Shown here: piece after piece, positions 9,602 to 16,183 of the stretch
Numbering within the stretch: the first letter of the stretch is position 1
How the letters are laid out: every line of letters starts with the position of its first letter
Source of the DNA: Chthonomonadaceae bacterium
Lineage (GTDB): Bacteria > Armatimonadota > Chthonomonadetes > Chthonomonadales > Chthonomonadaceae
Reading direction: 5' to 3'
Assembly (NCBI GenBank): GCA_027459665.1
Contig: DAIDHN010000002.1
Coordinates: 62,001-126,000, forward strand
Length of the DNA stretch: 64,000 bases
Position numbers and translations under genes: made by a program
The notes under the pieces: model-generated
Databases searched by the model: none
What the model was told of the DNA's origin: nothing
The model's input: the letters and a program-made list of their open reading frames with translations, nothing else

Positions 9602-11080
9602 TTATGCTGTTGTACTGCGCATAAAACGCACTGCTTCTTTTTCATAGGTATGAAAAGGGTTTTTCAAATCTAGCTGACGGTTCCGCTCAATATACACCGC
9701 ATCCCAGTCTATAATATATCTTGCCCCTGGCCTGCTAAGCAATTGCGTTACAATCTGTCCCCGTGCAAATGCTCTCGTATTGTCTGGAGGAGCAAGCAGC
9801 GCTTTCTCTATATCTTCATCACTGCACAGACGCTGCAGGGCGCCCGCCTGCTCAAGTGCATAACTCAAACCTTTGTCAGGGCTGACATTGTGGTATTCCA
9901 GATCAAGGCTCTGCATAACATCATCCGTCCAGCAAACATTGTTTTCCTGCATGTACTGCATGTACAATGTTTTTTTGGCTGCCCAGTCCAAACGATCTGC
10001 GGTGCTGAGAGGGTCCTGCTCCAAATCATTCAGTGTTCTCTCCCATTCTCTTAAAACCATATCGGTTTGCGCATCTTTCCTGCCTAAATACCGTTTTGCC
10101 GCATCCAGATACCTGCGCTGCAAGTCGATAGCGCTAATCACTCTGCCATTGCGCAGCCGCACTGGCCACTTCATTTTTTGGTCTCGTGATACCTGGCGCA
10201 AGGTTTCCAGCGGGTCTGCCAGTTCCATATCAGGCGGGGCAACGCCTTCTTCAATCAAATCAAGCACCAGACTGGTAGTGCCTACTTTCAGCATGCAGGC
10301 ATACTCGCTCATGTTGCTTTCGCCAAAAAGAATATGCAGGCGATGCAAATTGGAATAAGAGTAGTAGGAATCCCATTTAGGATTGATTATCGCTCTGTTA
10401 AAACGCACTCTGCTGCTAATGGTCTTTACAATATGGTCTGCACGCTGTGAAAGCTGAAAACCTGCCTCGTTATCTATTTCTACACCGTAAAAATTAGATA
10501 CCCAAACATAGTCAACTTCATGTTCTCCCAGCGACATTACATTGTTCTTACTGGAAGGGCGTACCAGCCTGTGCCCGCCTACTCTGCCTATACCGGCAAA
10601 AATCTGACGAGTCACCAAAAAAGGCAGCAGAAAAGTAAGTGCATCGGTAAAAAAACGATCTTCAATTTGCACCAGATAGTTTTCATGGCAGCCAAAAGTA
10701 TGCCCGCCAAAGTGGTCTATACTGTTGTTATGAAAACTGGCAAGGTCTTCCAGATTCAATTCCTGCAGTAGTTGGGCAAGCATAATTCTGCCCACTCTGT
10801 CATATCGTACCAGGTCGAGAAGATCGGTACATTCGGGCGTAGCGTATTCCTCATGGCTTCCTACTGCGTCTATATAAAGCCTGCCCCCATTGCGCAAAAA
10901 ACCACCTGCCCGAGCAGGTTCAAAAGCATAATCTCTGGCATGCAGGTCTATTACGCCAAGTTTTTTCTGGTAAAAGGCATAGTCCTTTACCTGCTCAACC
11001 ACCTCTTCAGGTGTGCCGGCTGCAGCATCGTTTACCATACAGCCAAACTCGGTTTCAATGCCAAAGATTCTTTTTTCCAT
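9602..11080 (-). CDS. pafA: Pup/UBact-protein ligase PafA
   Basis: 492 residues, close to PafA length elsewhere. The glutamine-synthetase-like fold begins with FGIETEFG (Mg/ATP-binding Glu residues) and continues to RLYIDAVGSHEEYATPEC, which contains the catalytic Asp and lacks the long loop that marks Dop. Other landmarks are SIDHFGGHTFGCHENY and the C-terminal region ending KEAVRFMRSTTA. It forms the isopeptide bond between the C-terminal Glu of the modifier and a substrate lysine. It starts 2 bases after prcA and is the last gene of the proteasome operon. Confidence 0.95.
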   Translation of the reverse strand: MEKRIFGIETEFGCMVNDAAAGTPEEVVEQVKDYAFYQKKLGVIDLHARDYAFEPARAGGFLRNGGRLYIDAVGSHEEYATPECTDLLDLVRYDRVGRIMLAQLLQELNLEDLASFHNNSIDHFGGHTFGCHENYLVQIEDRFFTDALTFLLPFLVTRQIFAGIGRVGGHRLVRPSSKNNVMSLGEHEVDYVWVSNFYGVEIDNEAGFQLSQRADHIVKTISSRVRFNRAIINPKWDSYYSYSNLHRLHILFGESNMSEYACMLKVGTTSLVLDLIEEGVAPPDMELADPLETLRQVSRDQKMKWPVRLRNGRVISAIDLQRRYLDAAKRYLGRKDAQTDMVLREWERTLNDLEQDPLSTADRLDWAAKKTLYMQYMQENNVCWTDDVMQSLDLEYHNVSPDKGLSYALEQAGALQRLCSDEDIEKALLAPPDNTRAFARGQIVTQLLSRPGARYIIDWDAVYIERNRQLDLKNPFHTYEKEAVRFMRSTTA

Positions 11081-11082
11081 GT

Positions 11083-11865
11083 TCAGTCCAGTTTCAGCAG
11101 CAGGGGCTTCAGTTCGATTTCCGAGAACAGTCGAAAACGCACTTCTGCATTGGCGCGTCTTTCCAGCAAACCTACTTCAAGAGCGCCTGTTTTCAATTCA
11201 TCTTTCAAAAAAATTATCTCTGCATTTTCATCGCTCACTCTCAGAGGGCTGTGCAAATCATCCTCTTCATCGCGCCTGCCCGTCAACAGTTCACGCGCCC
11301 CTGCTGCCCATGCTGTCAGGGCATTCCACATGGCATCCTCAATCGATATGTTTTTGTCTGTTTCGCCAAGTACTTCCATCATTTTGTCTTCACTTACCTG
11401 CGTGCCTGAAATAACGGCACAGCCTGTAAAATGACGAAACTCACCATCATAGTTAAGGGTATAAAAGCCATCTCTAGAAGGGGTGCGCCCCATTTCTGCA
11501 AAAAGCGCACGTATTACCACCGGAACATACATTTGGTCGCCAAATGCTTTCTTTAAGGTAGGGCTGAGACCAAAACCCACCAGCCTCTGCAGAGTTACGT
11601 CATCGGGGCTTCTTTCAAACCCTTCCTGGTGTGCCTGCTGAATGGCAGCAAGACGCACGTTTTCTATATCCGACTGTTTGCCAATGGCAGCAAACATCTG
11701 CCTGTCATATATTTCGTATATCTTACGCTGGCTTCGTCGAACAGTAAGCAGAAGCAAGCCATGGCGGCAGCATATGCCAACAACAGGGCTACCCGATCTT
11801 AGCCCTTCTTCTACATAATCTTTGCGATGGGCAATTGCTTCATTGATGTCGTATGGAGTGTACAC
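11083..11865 (-). CDS. prcA: 20S proteasome alpha subunit
   Basis: 260 residues. The N-terminus MYTPYDINEAIAHRKDYVEEGLRSGSP matches bacterial alpha subunits, which start with the gate-forming tail and helix H0. It lacks an N-terminal threonine nucleophile, so it should be structural, forming the outer rings that gate the chamber and dock the ATPase. The GTG start at 11865 has GAGG 7 bases upstream and lies 2 bases after the prcB stop. The charged C-terminal extension (TGRRDEEDD onward) is longer than the core fold requires. Confidence 0.93.
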   Translation of the reverse strand: MYTPYDINEAIAHRKDYVEEGLRSGSPVVGICCRHGLLLLTVRRSQRKIYEIYDRQMFAAIGKQSDIENVRLAAIQQAHQEGFERSPDDVTLQRLVGFGLSPTLKKAFGDQMYVPVVIRALFAEMGRTPSRDGFYTLNYDGEFRHFTGCAVISGTQVSEDKMMEVLGETDKNISIEDAMWNALTAWAAGARELLTGRRDEEDDLHSPLRVSDENAEIIFLKDELKTGALEVGLLERRANAEVRFRLFSEIELKPLLLKLD

Positions 11866-11867
11866 GT

Positions 11868-12662
11868 TCAGCCTCTTCCTTGTTCTATTCGGTTCACCAC
11901 AGTACGTAAATCCGCCTCACTCACATCTTCAATTCCCTTAGCGGTTATAGTGCGCGCAAGCGGAAGTATTTTGCTCCATCCACCGGTTGCCGCATCCAAA
12001 TCGGCGGCAATATCCAGCAGAAGCAGTGCCTCCTGCAGTGCCTCATCACGGCTCATCTGATGAAAGGGCTTCTTAGTTTTCACGATGTAGTCAAAAATAC
12101 CTCTAATCTGCATTGAGCCACTGCCTGCCGCACCAAACTCTGTGCTTTCAAACCTGGCCCCCATCCCATCGTAAAAAAAGATACGCCCCTCATTCGCTTC
12201 CAGATCAAAGGTAACCAGAATAGGTATAAACCCGCCGATACCCTGCAGTGCCTCTGGTATGCCGGCGCGAACCACCTTGGTCAGCTCGGCCAGTTTTCCT
12301 TCCAAACTCATAGGCTGCAGGTAGGTTCGTTCGAACAGTTTGAACGAAGTGCGCAGGTAGCGAACTACCTCCATTGCGCGTGCAAATGAGCCTGATATAG
12401 CCAATAGCGTGTAATCATCTACCGAGAGTACCTTGTCTGCCTTGTCATACATCACCGAAAAGTTGGCTGTAGCCCTTCTGTCTCCTACCGCAAGCACACC
12501 CTCATCGTATTTGACTGCTATTACAGTAGTGCCATGCACCTCAAGAGTATTTGGGCTGGCAAACAAATCTGCCTGATGCACCGGAGTCTGCCTGGTAAGC
12601 GGATGCCCGTGTTGCTCGAGCAGACTCCAGAGATCGCCACCTGTTTCACGGGAAGAAAACAT
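11868..12662 (-). CDS. prcB: 20S proteasome beta subunit (catalytic)
   Basis: 264 residues with a 44-residue propeptide ending EVHG, then Thr45 as the N-terminal nucleophile after autocleavage (TTVIAVKYDEG). Counting from that Thr, Asp17 (GDRRAT) and Lys33 (DKADKVL) fall exactly at the canonical catalytic positions, and GSGS lies later in the chain, so the enzyme should be active. It forms the inner rings of the 20S core. It starts 2 bases after ubact; prcB-prcA order is standard. Confidence 0.95.
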   Translation of the reverse strand: MFSSRETGGDLWSLLEQHGHPLTRQTPVHQADLFASPNTLEVHGTTVIAVKYDEGVLAVGDRRATANFSVMYDKADKVLSVDDYTLLAISGSFARAMEVVRYLRTSFKLFERTYLQPMSLEGKLAELTKVVRAGIPEALQGIGGFIPILVTFDLEANEGRIFFYDGMGARFESTEFGAAGSGSMQIRGIFDYIVKTKKPFHQMSRDEALQEALLLLDIAADLDAATGGWSKILPLARTITAKGIEDVSEADLRTVVNRIEQGRG

Positions 12663-12664
12663 CG

Positions 12665-12853
12665 TTATTCCCCGCTCCGCTGCCGGTAGCGGCGGGCTGC
12701 ATCAGGGTCTACCCTGCGCATGCGGCGCAGCAGGTCACTGGTATCTGGGCGCTTTACATCAGGTTTGCCGGGGCCGTCGCCATCGCCTTCCTTACGAGCA
12801 GGTTCAACAGGCTGAACAGGCAGTTGTCTTCGTTCTTCAGCACGCATTTCCAT
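12665..12853 (-). CDS. UBact, Pup-like protein modifier
   Basis: 62 residues. ATG 12853 is chosen because GGAGGT lies exactly 7 bases upstream (a GTG three codons earlier overlaps that site). The N-terminal half is charged and disordered (MRAEERRQLPVQ, GDGDGPGKPDVK); the C-terminal half is the conserved helix-forming block RPDTSDLLRRMRRVDP followed by RRYRQRSGE. It ends in Gly-Glu, so unlike many actinobacterial Pups ending in Gln it needs no deamidation before ligation. This matches the UBact family described from Nitrospirae, Armatimonadetes and related phyla. The start lies inside the end of dop, implying coupled translation. Confidence 0.93.
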   Translation of the reverse strand: MEMRAEERRQLPVQPVEPARKEGDGDGPGKPDVKRPDTSDLLRRMRRVDPDAARRYRQRSGE

Positions 12854-14387
12854 TTTCTTCACCTCCAGACCTTCGTTTTATTTCCGAACCAGGCTGCAGC
12901 AAATCTACAACCTGAGCAAGGCTGCGAGCCACTTGAAACTCTTCATTCAGCAGACGCACATTGTCTTCCACCAGAGGATTCATATCGAATAAAAGGTCTT
13001 CTTCGTTATGACGAAACAATACTCCATTCCAGCCGATCGCCCTTATAGAGGCTGCAAAACGCTCTACAAACAAGCCGCGCAGAAAAGCGCGGGTATCTGC
13101 TGGCGGGCAGGTAATTGCCGACTGTACGCGTGCCTCTGTTACCAGAGTTCGCATTTCTCCCGCCTGCAGCAGTGCATGGTACAACCCGGCTTCAGGGTCT
13201 ATATTATGATATGCGAGGTCTAGGCTCTGCATGTGAGGGTCATTCCATGCCAGCTTTTCTTCTATACCAAACTCGTTCAGCAGTTGATACTTGGCCACCC
13301 AGTCAAGCCTGTCAGCCGCTTCCATAGGGTCTCTGGCTAGTACATTCAGTATATTTTCCCATTCTGCAAGCGTCCATCGTATATCTTCATCTGTTTCCTC
13401 ACTCAAGTACCTGTGCGCCTGATCCAGATAAATACGTTGAATTTCCAGTGCGGTAACAGGAGTTCCATTTTCCCGTTCGGCAGACTGCTTCAGGGTGATG
13501 TCCCTCGAAAACAGCCGAGCAGCACGCACCGGGTCACGCAGTCGCAACAGCGGCTCCGCCCCTTTTTCCAGCATGGCTAGTACTACGGCGGTAGTGCCTG
13601 TTTTCAGGGCTGTCGCGTATTCACTCATGTTTGCGTCGCCGCAAATTACGTGAAGTCTTCTGTAGCGGCTGGGTGTAGCATGAGGCTCATCGCGAGTATT
13701 CACCAGCGGGCGGTTATGCAAAGTATCTACGCTTGCTTCTATTGCCATGTAATCGGCCCGCTGCGACATTTGGAAGAGGTTTGCTTCGCTGCCAGATATA
13801 TTTTCAACACCACTCTTGCCTGCCCCTGCAAATATACAGCGAGAGGCAAAAAAAGGCAGCAGCATGGCAATCAGCATTTCAGGCAAAACATCGCGCAGGG
13901 TGAGATAACATTCATGCGTGCCATAACTGGCGCCATGAAAATCTGTGTTGTTTTTGTAGATGGTTACTGCACGACTGGTTTGCTCACTGCGCTTTTTTGC
14001 AGCTTCCCATACTATGCGTTCACCAGCTTTGTCGTGGGCAACCAAATCACGCAACATGCGGCATTCAGGGGTAGAGTACTCAGGGTGGCCATGGTCATTG
14101 TAAAAACGAGCGCCATTTGCAAGAACCCTGTCGTTGCGCTCCTCCTCCCTGCTCATCGGCTTGCTGCCAGGCAAATCAAATTTGGCATCATCCGGGTTGG
14201 TGCTGAGGTGTTTTACTGTAAAACCACGCATATCACGGCGAGGGTCTTCACCATGATAATTCCAGCCGCTTACTTGCGGACCGGGTACGCCTCTTATAAG
14301 CGCCATCGACTCGCTCACCCAGTCAGAAGCGTTCAGACCCTCTGCCACTATACCGTATTCGGTTTCAATACCCAGTAGTCTATCCAT
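12837..14387 (-). CDS. dop: Dop, deamidase/depupylase of the modifier
   Basis: 516 residues. Shares the PafA/glutamine-synthetase fold (LLGIETEYGI at the N-terminus, DHGHPEYSTPEC with the catalytic Asp), but has the long insertion that identifies Dop between them (about residues 36-80, including GEDPRRDMRGF). Other landmarks are NNTDFHGASYGTHECYL and CGDANMSEYATALKTGT. Because the modifier already ends in Glu, deamidation is not needed and the likely job is removing UBact from substrates. The 3' end overlaps ubact by 17 bases; the gene begins 11 bases after arc. Confidence 0.93.
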   Translation of the reverse strand: MDRLLGIETEYGIVAEGLNASDWVSESMALIRGVPGPQVSGWNYHGEDPRRDMRGFTVKHLSTNPDDAKFDLPGSKPMSREEERNDRVLANGARFYNDHGHPEYSTPECRMLRDLVAHDKAGERIVWEAAKKRSEQTSRAVTIYKNNTDFHGASYGTHECYLTLRDVLPEMLIAMLLPFFASRCIFAGAGKSGVENISGSEANLFQMSQRADYMAIEASVDTLHNRPLVNTRDEPHATPSRYRRLHVICGDANMSEYATALKTGTTAVVLAMLEKGAEPLLRLRDPVRAARLFSRDITLKQSAERENGTPVTALEIQRIYLDQAHRYLSEETDEDIRWTLAEWENILNVLARDPMEAADRLDWVAKYQLLNEFGIEEKLAWNDPHMQSLDLAYHNIDPEAGLYHALLQAGEMRTLVTEARVQSAITCPPADTRAFLRGLFVERFAASIRAIGWNGVLFRHNEEDLLFDMNPLVEDNVRLLNEEFQVARSLAQVVDLLQPGSEIKRRSGGEENGNAC

Positions 14388-14398
14388 TGTTAGCCTTG

Positions 14399-16183
14399 CT
14401 AAATTATGTTTCTTCTGCTTTCCTGCGGGCTTCTTTTGCCGCGTACAGGTTTTACAGTAACAACATTTTCAGGCTCATAGTCAAGCAGTTTGAGCCAGTC
14501 TTCTATGTTGTCTCCCTTCGGGAAGATTTCATTCTCCTTAAACTCTATGCGTACAGCCTGCTCAATGTCGGCTGTTGAGATGCCTTCTTCCTCCGAACGA
14601 CGCTCAATGCTGCGCTTAATCGCAAAATCTTTGGCGCGTTCTACCACCGATTTGATTAATGCTCCGCTAATCAGGTCTTTCCAGTAAAGGGTTTCGGTGC
14701 TGCCATTTCTCAAAAACACCTCCAGAAACTCTGTTTCATGTGAGCGGCGGTAGGTATATTCTGTGGCTCGATCAAGCAGCTCATCCATTACTGCAGTGCA
14801 GTCTCCCTTGTAGCTGCGTATCAGTTCAGGATCAAGCGGTATGCCTGAAAGGTATATGCGGTAAATGTCACGCGTGGCCCGGCGGTCTGGGCGAACCACT
14901 TTGACTTTGCGGTCGATGCGTTCTGGCCGAAGGATGGCGGGGTCTATGTAGTCTGGGCGGTTGGAAGTAAGCATCACCACTACGTTGTCCAGGCTCACAA
15001 GGCCATCCATTTCAGCGCAAAACTGCGGTACAAGCGTATTCGAGATGTTGAGAAAACGCCCGCTGCTTCTGGTACGCAGCAGCGACTCAGCTTCATCTAT
15101 GAAAATGAAAACCAGTCTTCCTTCCTTGGCTTTTTCTCTTGCCTGTGCAAAAATCTCTCTTACCTGTCTTTCGCTTTCACCAAGCCACATGTTGAGAATC
15201 TTTGGCCCATTGATGTACATAAAGTATTCTCTTACATCCCGCCCTGTTCGTTCACGGTATTCCTGGGTCAAATTATAGGCGGTGGCCTTACCAATCAGAG
15301 TCTTTCCACATCCGGGGGGGCCAAACAGAAGTATCCCCTTCATCGGTCGTTTGCCAAAACGCTCGAACAGTTCAGGATGCAGCAACGGCAGTTCAATGGC
15401 ATCTCGAATTACCGAAATAACCTCGTCCTGCCCTCCAATCTTATTCCAGGGCAGCACCGGCACATCTTCCAAAAAGTAATCATTTACCTCTTTTGCAGGG
15501 AAGTGCTCAAGAGCAACCTTGAAATTAGGTTCCATTCTTACTTCTGAACCAGCTTTCAGCGGTGTATCGAGTAAATTTTCTCCACGATACACAATGCGAG
15601 ACTGCATACCCTGCGCATCCATAGATACTCGCAAGCGGCCATCTTCCAGTACTTCAGATATCTTGACAATAGCACCGCCCAGCGCATAACCTAAATCACC
15701 CACTACGGCAAATGCCTCGTTTACTTTTACTTGAGTACCAATATTAAACTTCTGATTTTCCAGTTTAGGGTCTATATTCGCTATGTATTCCTGATCGCCC
15801 AGTGAGATGCGGGCAGCAACGCCTTGTTTTTCTTCGGTTTCAACGGCAAACAGCCTGCGACGCGGCTTTTTTTCTTCTGGTGCAACTATGCCTAAAAAAA
15901 CACCAATGCGATTTGCAGGCGCAGTGAGCTTGTTGTATGCCTCTTCAAATTCGGAGAGCATTTTACGCGCCTCGTCCATCATGGCCTCATCTGTCTCCAA
16001 CTGTTCCCGAAGGGCAAGCAAATGCGCCTGTCTGTTGTCGCTGCGCGGCGTCATGCGAATAATTTCATCCAGTATCCAGAGCGCGCGCAGCTGCATTTCT
16101 ACATCATCTCCAGATGAGTTGTAACTGGAATTGGAATGGTTATTGTCGTCCTGGGGCTGATTGCGATCCGGATTTTTTCTCAT
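14399..16183 (-). CDS. arc: Proteasome-associated AAA+ ATPase (ARC/Mpa)
   Basis: 594 residues. Order: low-complexity Asn/Ser N-terminus (1-30), coiled coil (about 31-88), tandem OB domains (about 92-240), AAA+ module with Walker A GPPGCGKT (288-295), Walker B FIFIDEAE (Asp363, Glu364) and arginine-finger region LRPERIDRK, then a C-terminal tail. It captures the tagged protein through the coiled coil, unfolds it and feeds it to the core. Most bacterial relatives end in a penultimate-tyrosine docking motif (GQYL-like); this one ends SRRNII. SD GGAG is 8 bases upstream. First gene of the operon. Confidence 0.94.
   Translation of the reverse strand: MRKNPDRNQPQDDNNHSNSSYNSSGDDVEMQLRALWILDEIIRMTPRSDNRQAHLLALREQLETDEAMMDEARKMLSEFEEAYNKLTAPANRIGVFLGIVAPEEKKPRRRLFAVETEEKQGVAARISLGDQEYIANIDPKLENQKFNIGTQVKVNEAFAVVGDLGYALGGAIVKISEVLEDGRLRVSMDAQGMQSRIVYRGENLLDTPLKAGSEVRMEPNFKVALEHFPAKEVNDYFLEDVPVLPWNKIGGQDEVISVIRDAIELPLLHPELFERFGKRPMKGILLFGPPGCGKTLIGKATAYNLTQEYRERTGRDVREYFMYINGPKILNMWLGESERQVREIFAQAREKAKEGRLVFIFIDEAESLLRTRSSGRFLNISNTLVPQFCAEMDGLVSLDNVVVMLTSNRPDYIDPAILRPERIDRKVKVVRPDRRATRDIYRIYLSGIPLDPELIRSYKGDCTAVMDELLDRATEYTYRRSHETEFLEVFLRNGSTETLYWKDLISGALIKSVVERAKDFAIKRSIERRSEEEGISTADIEQAVRIEFKENEIFPKGDNIEDWLKLLDYEPENVVTVKPVRGKRSPQESRRNII

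Follow-up and report, generated by a model that had tools for sequence, protein, structure and literature searches.

The 64,000-nucleotide stretch analysed here (the window) covers positions 62001-126000 of contig C2 in the genome of a Chthonomonadaceae bacterium (G000; 3.67 Mb, 99.9% complete). At 9602-16183 its minus strand carries six uninterrupted open reading frames (ORFs) in the order arc, dop, ubact, prcB, prcA, pafA (Table 1). The elements that define a UBact-proteasome system are found together: a modifier, two adjoining enzymes of the PafA/Dop glutamine synthetase (GS) fold, the alpha and beta subunits of a 20S core and an ARC-type ATPase. A preliminary description had proposed a complete six-gene UBact operon on one strand, with dop and ubact overlapping and the other junctions measuring 2-11 bases. 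Both points hold: all six ORFs are intact and match curated families, dop shares 26 bases with ubact, which is read in another frame, arc and dop are 11 bases apart and the remaining gaps are of 2, 2 and 2 bases. Judged by its sequence, the operon is an ordinary, intact member of the known UBact-proteasome kind, which is common in the phylum.

The modifier scores above the curated cut-offs of PF20513 (2.3e-22) and NF033388 (1.4e-22), is encoded by a single copy in the genome and ends in RYRQRSGE, fitting the family pattern R-[YF]-R-Q-R-[ST]-G-[EQN]. Compared with actinobacterial Pup it reaches only 0.8 bits, and Pfam assigns it to UBact, not Pup. Lehmann et al. reportedly described the UBact family in 2017, in Gram-negative bacteria. 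A set of 51 distinct UBacts divides into 31 with a terminal GE and 20 with GQ. The encoded terminal residue appears to be evolutionarily labile, because at least 10 changes between E and Q are needed over the 39 loci with a PafA tree, and close relatives differ (UBacts from L002-L110). UBact is encoded here with a terminal Glu; therefore no prior deamidation would be needed and Dop would act as a deconjugase. In some Armatimonadota genomes, a full and a partial UBact-like match lie about 80 bases apart (G013:C4:768105-768378 and G079:C30:12142-12415), and such pairs are possibly tandem modifiers.

The proteasomal components are recognized by their families. ARC matches TIGR03689 (pup_AAA; 2.5e-133), PF00004, PF16450 and PF17758, and its best solved relatives are Mpa structures (e.g., 5kwa, 6.2e-98). 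PrcB matches PF00227 (Proteasome; 2.3e-26) and TIGR03690 (1.6e-44), and the catalytic Thr45 can be read in its sequence, together with Asp17 and Lys33 by mature count; it is the only 20S beta subunit in the genome, where the other PF00227 match is HslV. PrcA matches TIGR03691 (20S_bact_alpha; 1e-22) and shares 30% identity with PrcA of Nonomuraea. Against the bacterial proteasome models, the matches of ARC, PrcA and PrcB stay below the NCBI equivalog cut-offs. The PrcA motif containing Lys48 is RKIYEIYDR; in the alignment its actinobacterial counterpart reads HKISEIYDR, and the shared lysine would correspond to the activator-pocket lysine of the Mycobacterium tuberculosis proteasome.

How might ARC engage the core? 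The window ARC terminates in RRNII, and all 47 UBact-type ARCs compared (the window, L002-L074 and L118-L137, drawn from Armatimonadota, Abditibacteria, Bipolaricaulota and one Fraserbacterium) end in [VI][VI] (II, VI, VV or IV), GQYL occurring in none; the two reference ARCs, from Nonomuraea and Tsukamurella, end in GQYL. Mpa requires this C-terminal GQYL for opening the 20S gate (PMC8142254). Its absence counts against a canonical ARC-20S partnership, and docking may therefore differ or need another factor. It is possible that tagging works while ARC is not docked on PrcAB, in which case the UBact tag would be regulatory or ARC a stand-alone unfoldase. Such an arrangement would account for a motif needed by Mpa being missing from the whole set of tails, but we consider it unlikely: prcBA lies in the same operon at 28 loci, the pocket lysine of PrcA is conserved, and the full conservation of an alternative tail argues that a docking function is kept. 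Docking of ARC on the 20S core would then proceed through the terminal carboxylate and two aliphatic residues, with no tyrosine. The invariant non-GQYL tail provides a new, testable angle on 20S gate opening by bacterial ARC motors.

Assigning the two GS-fold enzymes is straightforward for one and harder for the other. Dop (PF03136, 2.8e-158) scores 456 bits with the TIGR03688 Dop model vs 343 with the PafA model, its nearest solved structures are Dop, and the Dop-loop (WNYHGEDPRRDMRG) is present, along with the ExE motif and the catalytic Asp98. The product of the last gene (PF03136, 1.9e-135) scores 338 bits with the TIGR03686 PafA model vs 315 with the Dop model. By the motif criteria that separate PafA from Dop (PMC7947786), it reads as PafA: the Dop-loop is absent, the ExE motif, catalytic Asp71 and HxN are kept, and it shows PafA-type spacing (D-A-V-G-S-H, pattern D-x(1,2)-G-S-H), His216 and a Ser-Ser in the alpha-loop.

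Several observations pull the other way. By sequence models and by fold this protein is about equally near Dop and PafA, and a sequence search of solved structures finds Dop first. Its AlphaFold model (predicted local distance difference test score 86) fits solved Dop and PafA about equally, with template modelling (TM) scores of 0.7-0.8, and the alpha-loop region is modelled at low confidence, with the PafA helix missing. With similar TM-scores to both enzymes and a poorly modelled alpha-loop, structure was discarded as a means of deciding between them. In trees, the UBact-type PafA joins the UBact-type Dop with support of 98/95, or 84/83 when more references are included. Both GS-fold enzymes could thus be of Dop type, the last gene encoding a second hydrolase or an enzyme of mixed role, and the PafA and Dop roles of UBact systems having arisen independently from the actinobacterial ones. 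The close bit scores, the Dop-first matches by sequence and fold and the tree topology are what this alternative explains, but it has to accommodate a protein without a Dop-loop and with PafA-type spacing, His216 and alpha-loop serines, and an approximately unbiased (AU) test in which a single clade of window-type and actinobacterial PafA is not rejected (p 0.247); we regard it as distinctly improbable. The trees hint that the PafA of UBact systems had an origin of its own, and the AU test gives this no support. The missing Dop-loop, the active-site spacing and the place in the operon make a good case, short of proof, for the last gene as the predicted UBact ligase PafA.

The locus very probably represents a complete UBact-proteasome operon working by the proposed tag-and-degrade scheme; its conjugation, degradation, docking, co-transcription and targets are what we infer from the genes. 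Using ATP, PafA would activate UBact at the gamma-carboxylate of its C-terminal Glu and then link it to substrate lysines, and Dop would remove it. The ARC hexamer would bind UBact via its N-terminal coiled coils, dock by its short hydrophobic -II tail in place of GQYL, unfold the tagged protein and thread the substrate into the PrcAB 20S core, where Thr45 of PrcB would be exposed once the propeptide is cleaved. The six genes are probably co-transcribed, and ubact may be translationally coupled to dop.

The operon shares with the UBact-proteasome system the RYRQRSG[EQ] end, the arc-dop-ubact-prcB-prcA-pafA neighbourhood and a single-copy 20S; the differences are at species level only and none is in kind, the terminal residue being E here and Q in close relatives. 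With the actinobacterial Pup-proteasome it has in common the enzyme families, the core gene order, the predicted chemistry and a 20S with a Thr protease, but UBact takes the place of Pup, ARC ends in NII where the actinobacterial protein ends in GQYL, and pafA lies directly downstream of prcA. In addition, the actinobacterial PafA/Dop stretch NTRDEPHA reads NPKWDSYY in the window PafA (NPKW for NTRDEPHA), and NPK[WRQH] occupies this position in the UBact-type PafAs displayed in the alignment. The catalytic Asp of the window PafA is followed by one additional residue. The preliminary description had all key residues in place, which stands for PrcB and for the catalytic residues of PafA and Dop but not for the ARC tail or the NTRDEPHA stretch of PafA. 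Both departures are, on sequence comparison, clade-wide and not damage. A degraded or relict operon is scarcely credible, given that all ORFs are intact, catalytic residues are kept and relatives reach 81% identity, the nearest PafA relatives belonging to Chthonomonadaceae and other Armatimonadota. These relatives place the host within the Chthonomonadaceae or close to them.

Comparison of gene order with other Armatimonadota, suggested in the preliminary description, returned 27 other loci (28 with the window, from Armatimonadota, Bipolaricaulota and Fraserbacteria) in which all six genes keep this order and share a strand. In Fimbriimonadia, pafA lies apart from the other genes in many loci, within the 10 kb seen. 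The rarity claimed earlier was overstated: UBact is present in 99/201 sampled Armatimonadota genomes, in 80 of the 140 of high quality and in 62/122 genera; a sample of 60 genomes from the phylum to which a Bipolaricaulota relative belongs contains 8 with UBact. Homologues of Dop and PafA in Armatimonadota have already been noted in print (PMC7947786). Recent literature continues to assign bacterial proteasomes to two orders only (PMC8142254), although UBact is carried by about half of the sampled genomes of this phylum.

Table 1. Features of the UBact operon (window coordinates) and of the second locus on contig C18 (L148 coordinates)
Feature	Coordinates	Strand	Description
arc	16183-14399	-	AAA+ proteasomal ATPase; coiled coil, two OB domains, AAA
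arc tail (codons N-I-I + stop)	14399..14410	-	hydrophobic C-terminal dipeptide where actinobacteria have GQYL
dop	14387-12837	-	predicted UBact deconjugase, Dop-type with Dop-loop
ubact	12862-12665	-	65-aa modifier; GTG start inside dop
prcB	12662-11868	-	20S beta subunit; 44-residue propeptide
prcA	11865-11083	-	20S alpha subunit; GTG start
pafA	11080-9602	-	predicted UBact ligase, without Dop-loop
FHA/RING-like	L148 10852-10322	-	labels read from sequence; Pfam RING weak, 0.1
E1/ThiF	L148 10313-9189	-	ThiF 2.6e-27; E1 cysteine read from sequence
E2	L148 9204-8698	-	HPN + catalytic Cys
X	L148 8694-7819	-	no family assigned
Ubl	L148 7822-7517	-	YukD-type/ubiquitin
JAB	L148 7542-6490	-	JAMM motif read from sequence; Pfam JAB marginal, 0.0016
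ARC2, ARC-like AAA+	L148 6441-4765	-	ARC family
Dop2, Dop-like	L148 4743-3100	-	PF03136; DxE motif
Pup2, 65-aa Pup-like	L148 3095-2898	-	ends FLRQSKQRGGQ
PafA2, PafA-like with TPR tail	L148 2901-850	-	PF03136; ExE motif

Upstream of arc, 191 bases away on the same strand, lie leuC and leuD (named by eye). The surroundings of the operon show promoter and terminator patterns at no more than chance level, and no tRNA or Rfam elements were found within the 64-kb window.

A search of the genome with PF03136 finds two further enzymes, both outside the window on contig C18. They belong to a row of genes running in one direction (L148 850-10852, minus strand), FHA/RING-E1-E2-X-Ubl-JAB-ARC2-Dop2-Pup2-PafA2, which is a more surprising result than the window operon, its novelty being checked against open-access literature only. 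The two loci have GS-fold and ARC families in common; the C18 locus differs in having no 20S genes, in a Pup-like modifier ending in GGQ and in the ubiquitin-type set within the row. The same order is found in genomes G155, G158, G053 and G005 (the five loci being L148, L187, L188, L189 and L220); in G158, G053 and G005 the contig breaks off within the row or at its edge. With X as the marker, the row is present in exactly 5 of 291 Armatimonadota genomes and spans four families. The flanks show no conservation among the loci listed, and no hybrid relative turned up in plasmid and viral collections; beside an ARC-like match on a Streptomyces plasmid, no Ub or Pup genes are annotated.

The ubiquitin-type half of the row is, by sequence, genuine. 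The E2 profile retrieves eukaryotic E2 enzymes (3.9e-14), UQ_con is matched in 16/18 members, and HPN and the Cys are invariant (n=18). The Ubl profile retrieves ubiquitin, YukD is matched in 13 of 15 members, and an AG near the C-terminus is invariant. In the Pup-type half, PafA2 and Dop2 each form one deep clade (support 100/99 and 100/100) and keep the catalytic Asp and acidic motif (ExE in PafA2, DxE in Dop2). The Dop2-PafA2 junction is covered in four loci, and each has a short ORF there (Pup2), ending in GGQ, SGE, GGQ or GGE; the three Pup2 proteins compared score 17.2, 10.1 and 4.8 bits against actinobacterial Pup, where UBact scores 0.8. The X protein, of about 290 aa, occurs only in the hybrid loci (L148 and its four relatives). 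Its halves look alike by eye, family and structure searches gave no convincing match, and a chaperone-like fold is a guess.

No 20S or other protease genes lie in the C18 row. UBact and 20S were not detected in G053, G158 (72-80% complete) or G005 (99%), whose sole PF00227 protein is HslV-type. Since only HslV is detected in the 99%-complete G005, ARC2 in that genome probably has no 20S to rely on. The most likely reading is one of two reversible tags, which E1-E2-RING and PafA2 would write, JAB and Dop2 erase, and ARC2 read as an unfoldase or segregase. On the whole genome, we lean, with moderate confidence, towards a cell that runs two separate Pup-type systems: in one, UBact-type ARCs would dock on the 20S via the -[VI][VI] tail; in the other, the C18 row would join ubiquitin-type and Pup-type conjugation in one machine that has an AAA+ unfoldase to itself but lacks a 20S; its two tags would target shared substrates or one another, JAB and Dop2 would erase them, and ARC2 would be the reader or segregase. 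If active, the row would bring both tagging chemistries, the thioester-relayed Ubl and the phosphate-activated Pup, into one bacterial operon and would bear on the interaction and evolution of the two tagging systems.

A survey of prokaryotic RING/Ub operons is said to have been made by Burroughs, Iyer and Aravind in 2011. No description of the hybrid row was found in the open-access literature, and an earlier one may exist outside it. Known defence systems were also considered and set aside: the JAB and E1 of the row gave only partial matches to the PADLOC models for JAB and E1-E2, and no system was called. Ubl-E1-E2-JAB loci in which no Pup genes were detected exist in other Armatimonadota, and the hybrid therefore looks like one that gained, or kept, the Pup set. 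Loci such as L191, L195, L197 and L201, in which Pup genes were likewise not detected, combine Ubl, E1 and JAB with RING-like proteins and a pair of E2 genes separated by about 5-6 kb.

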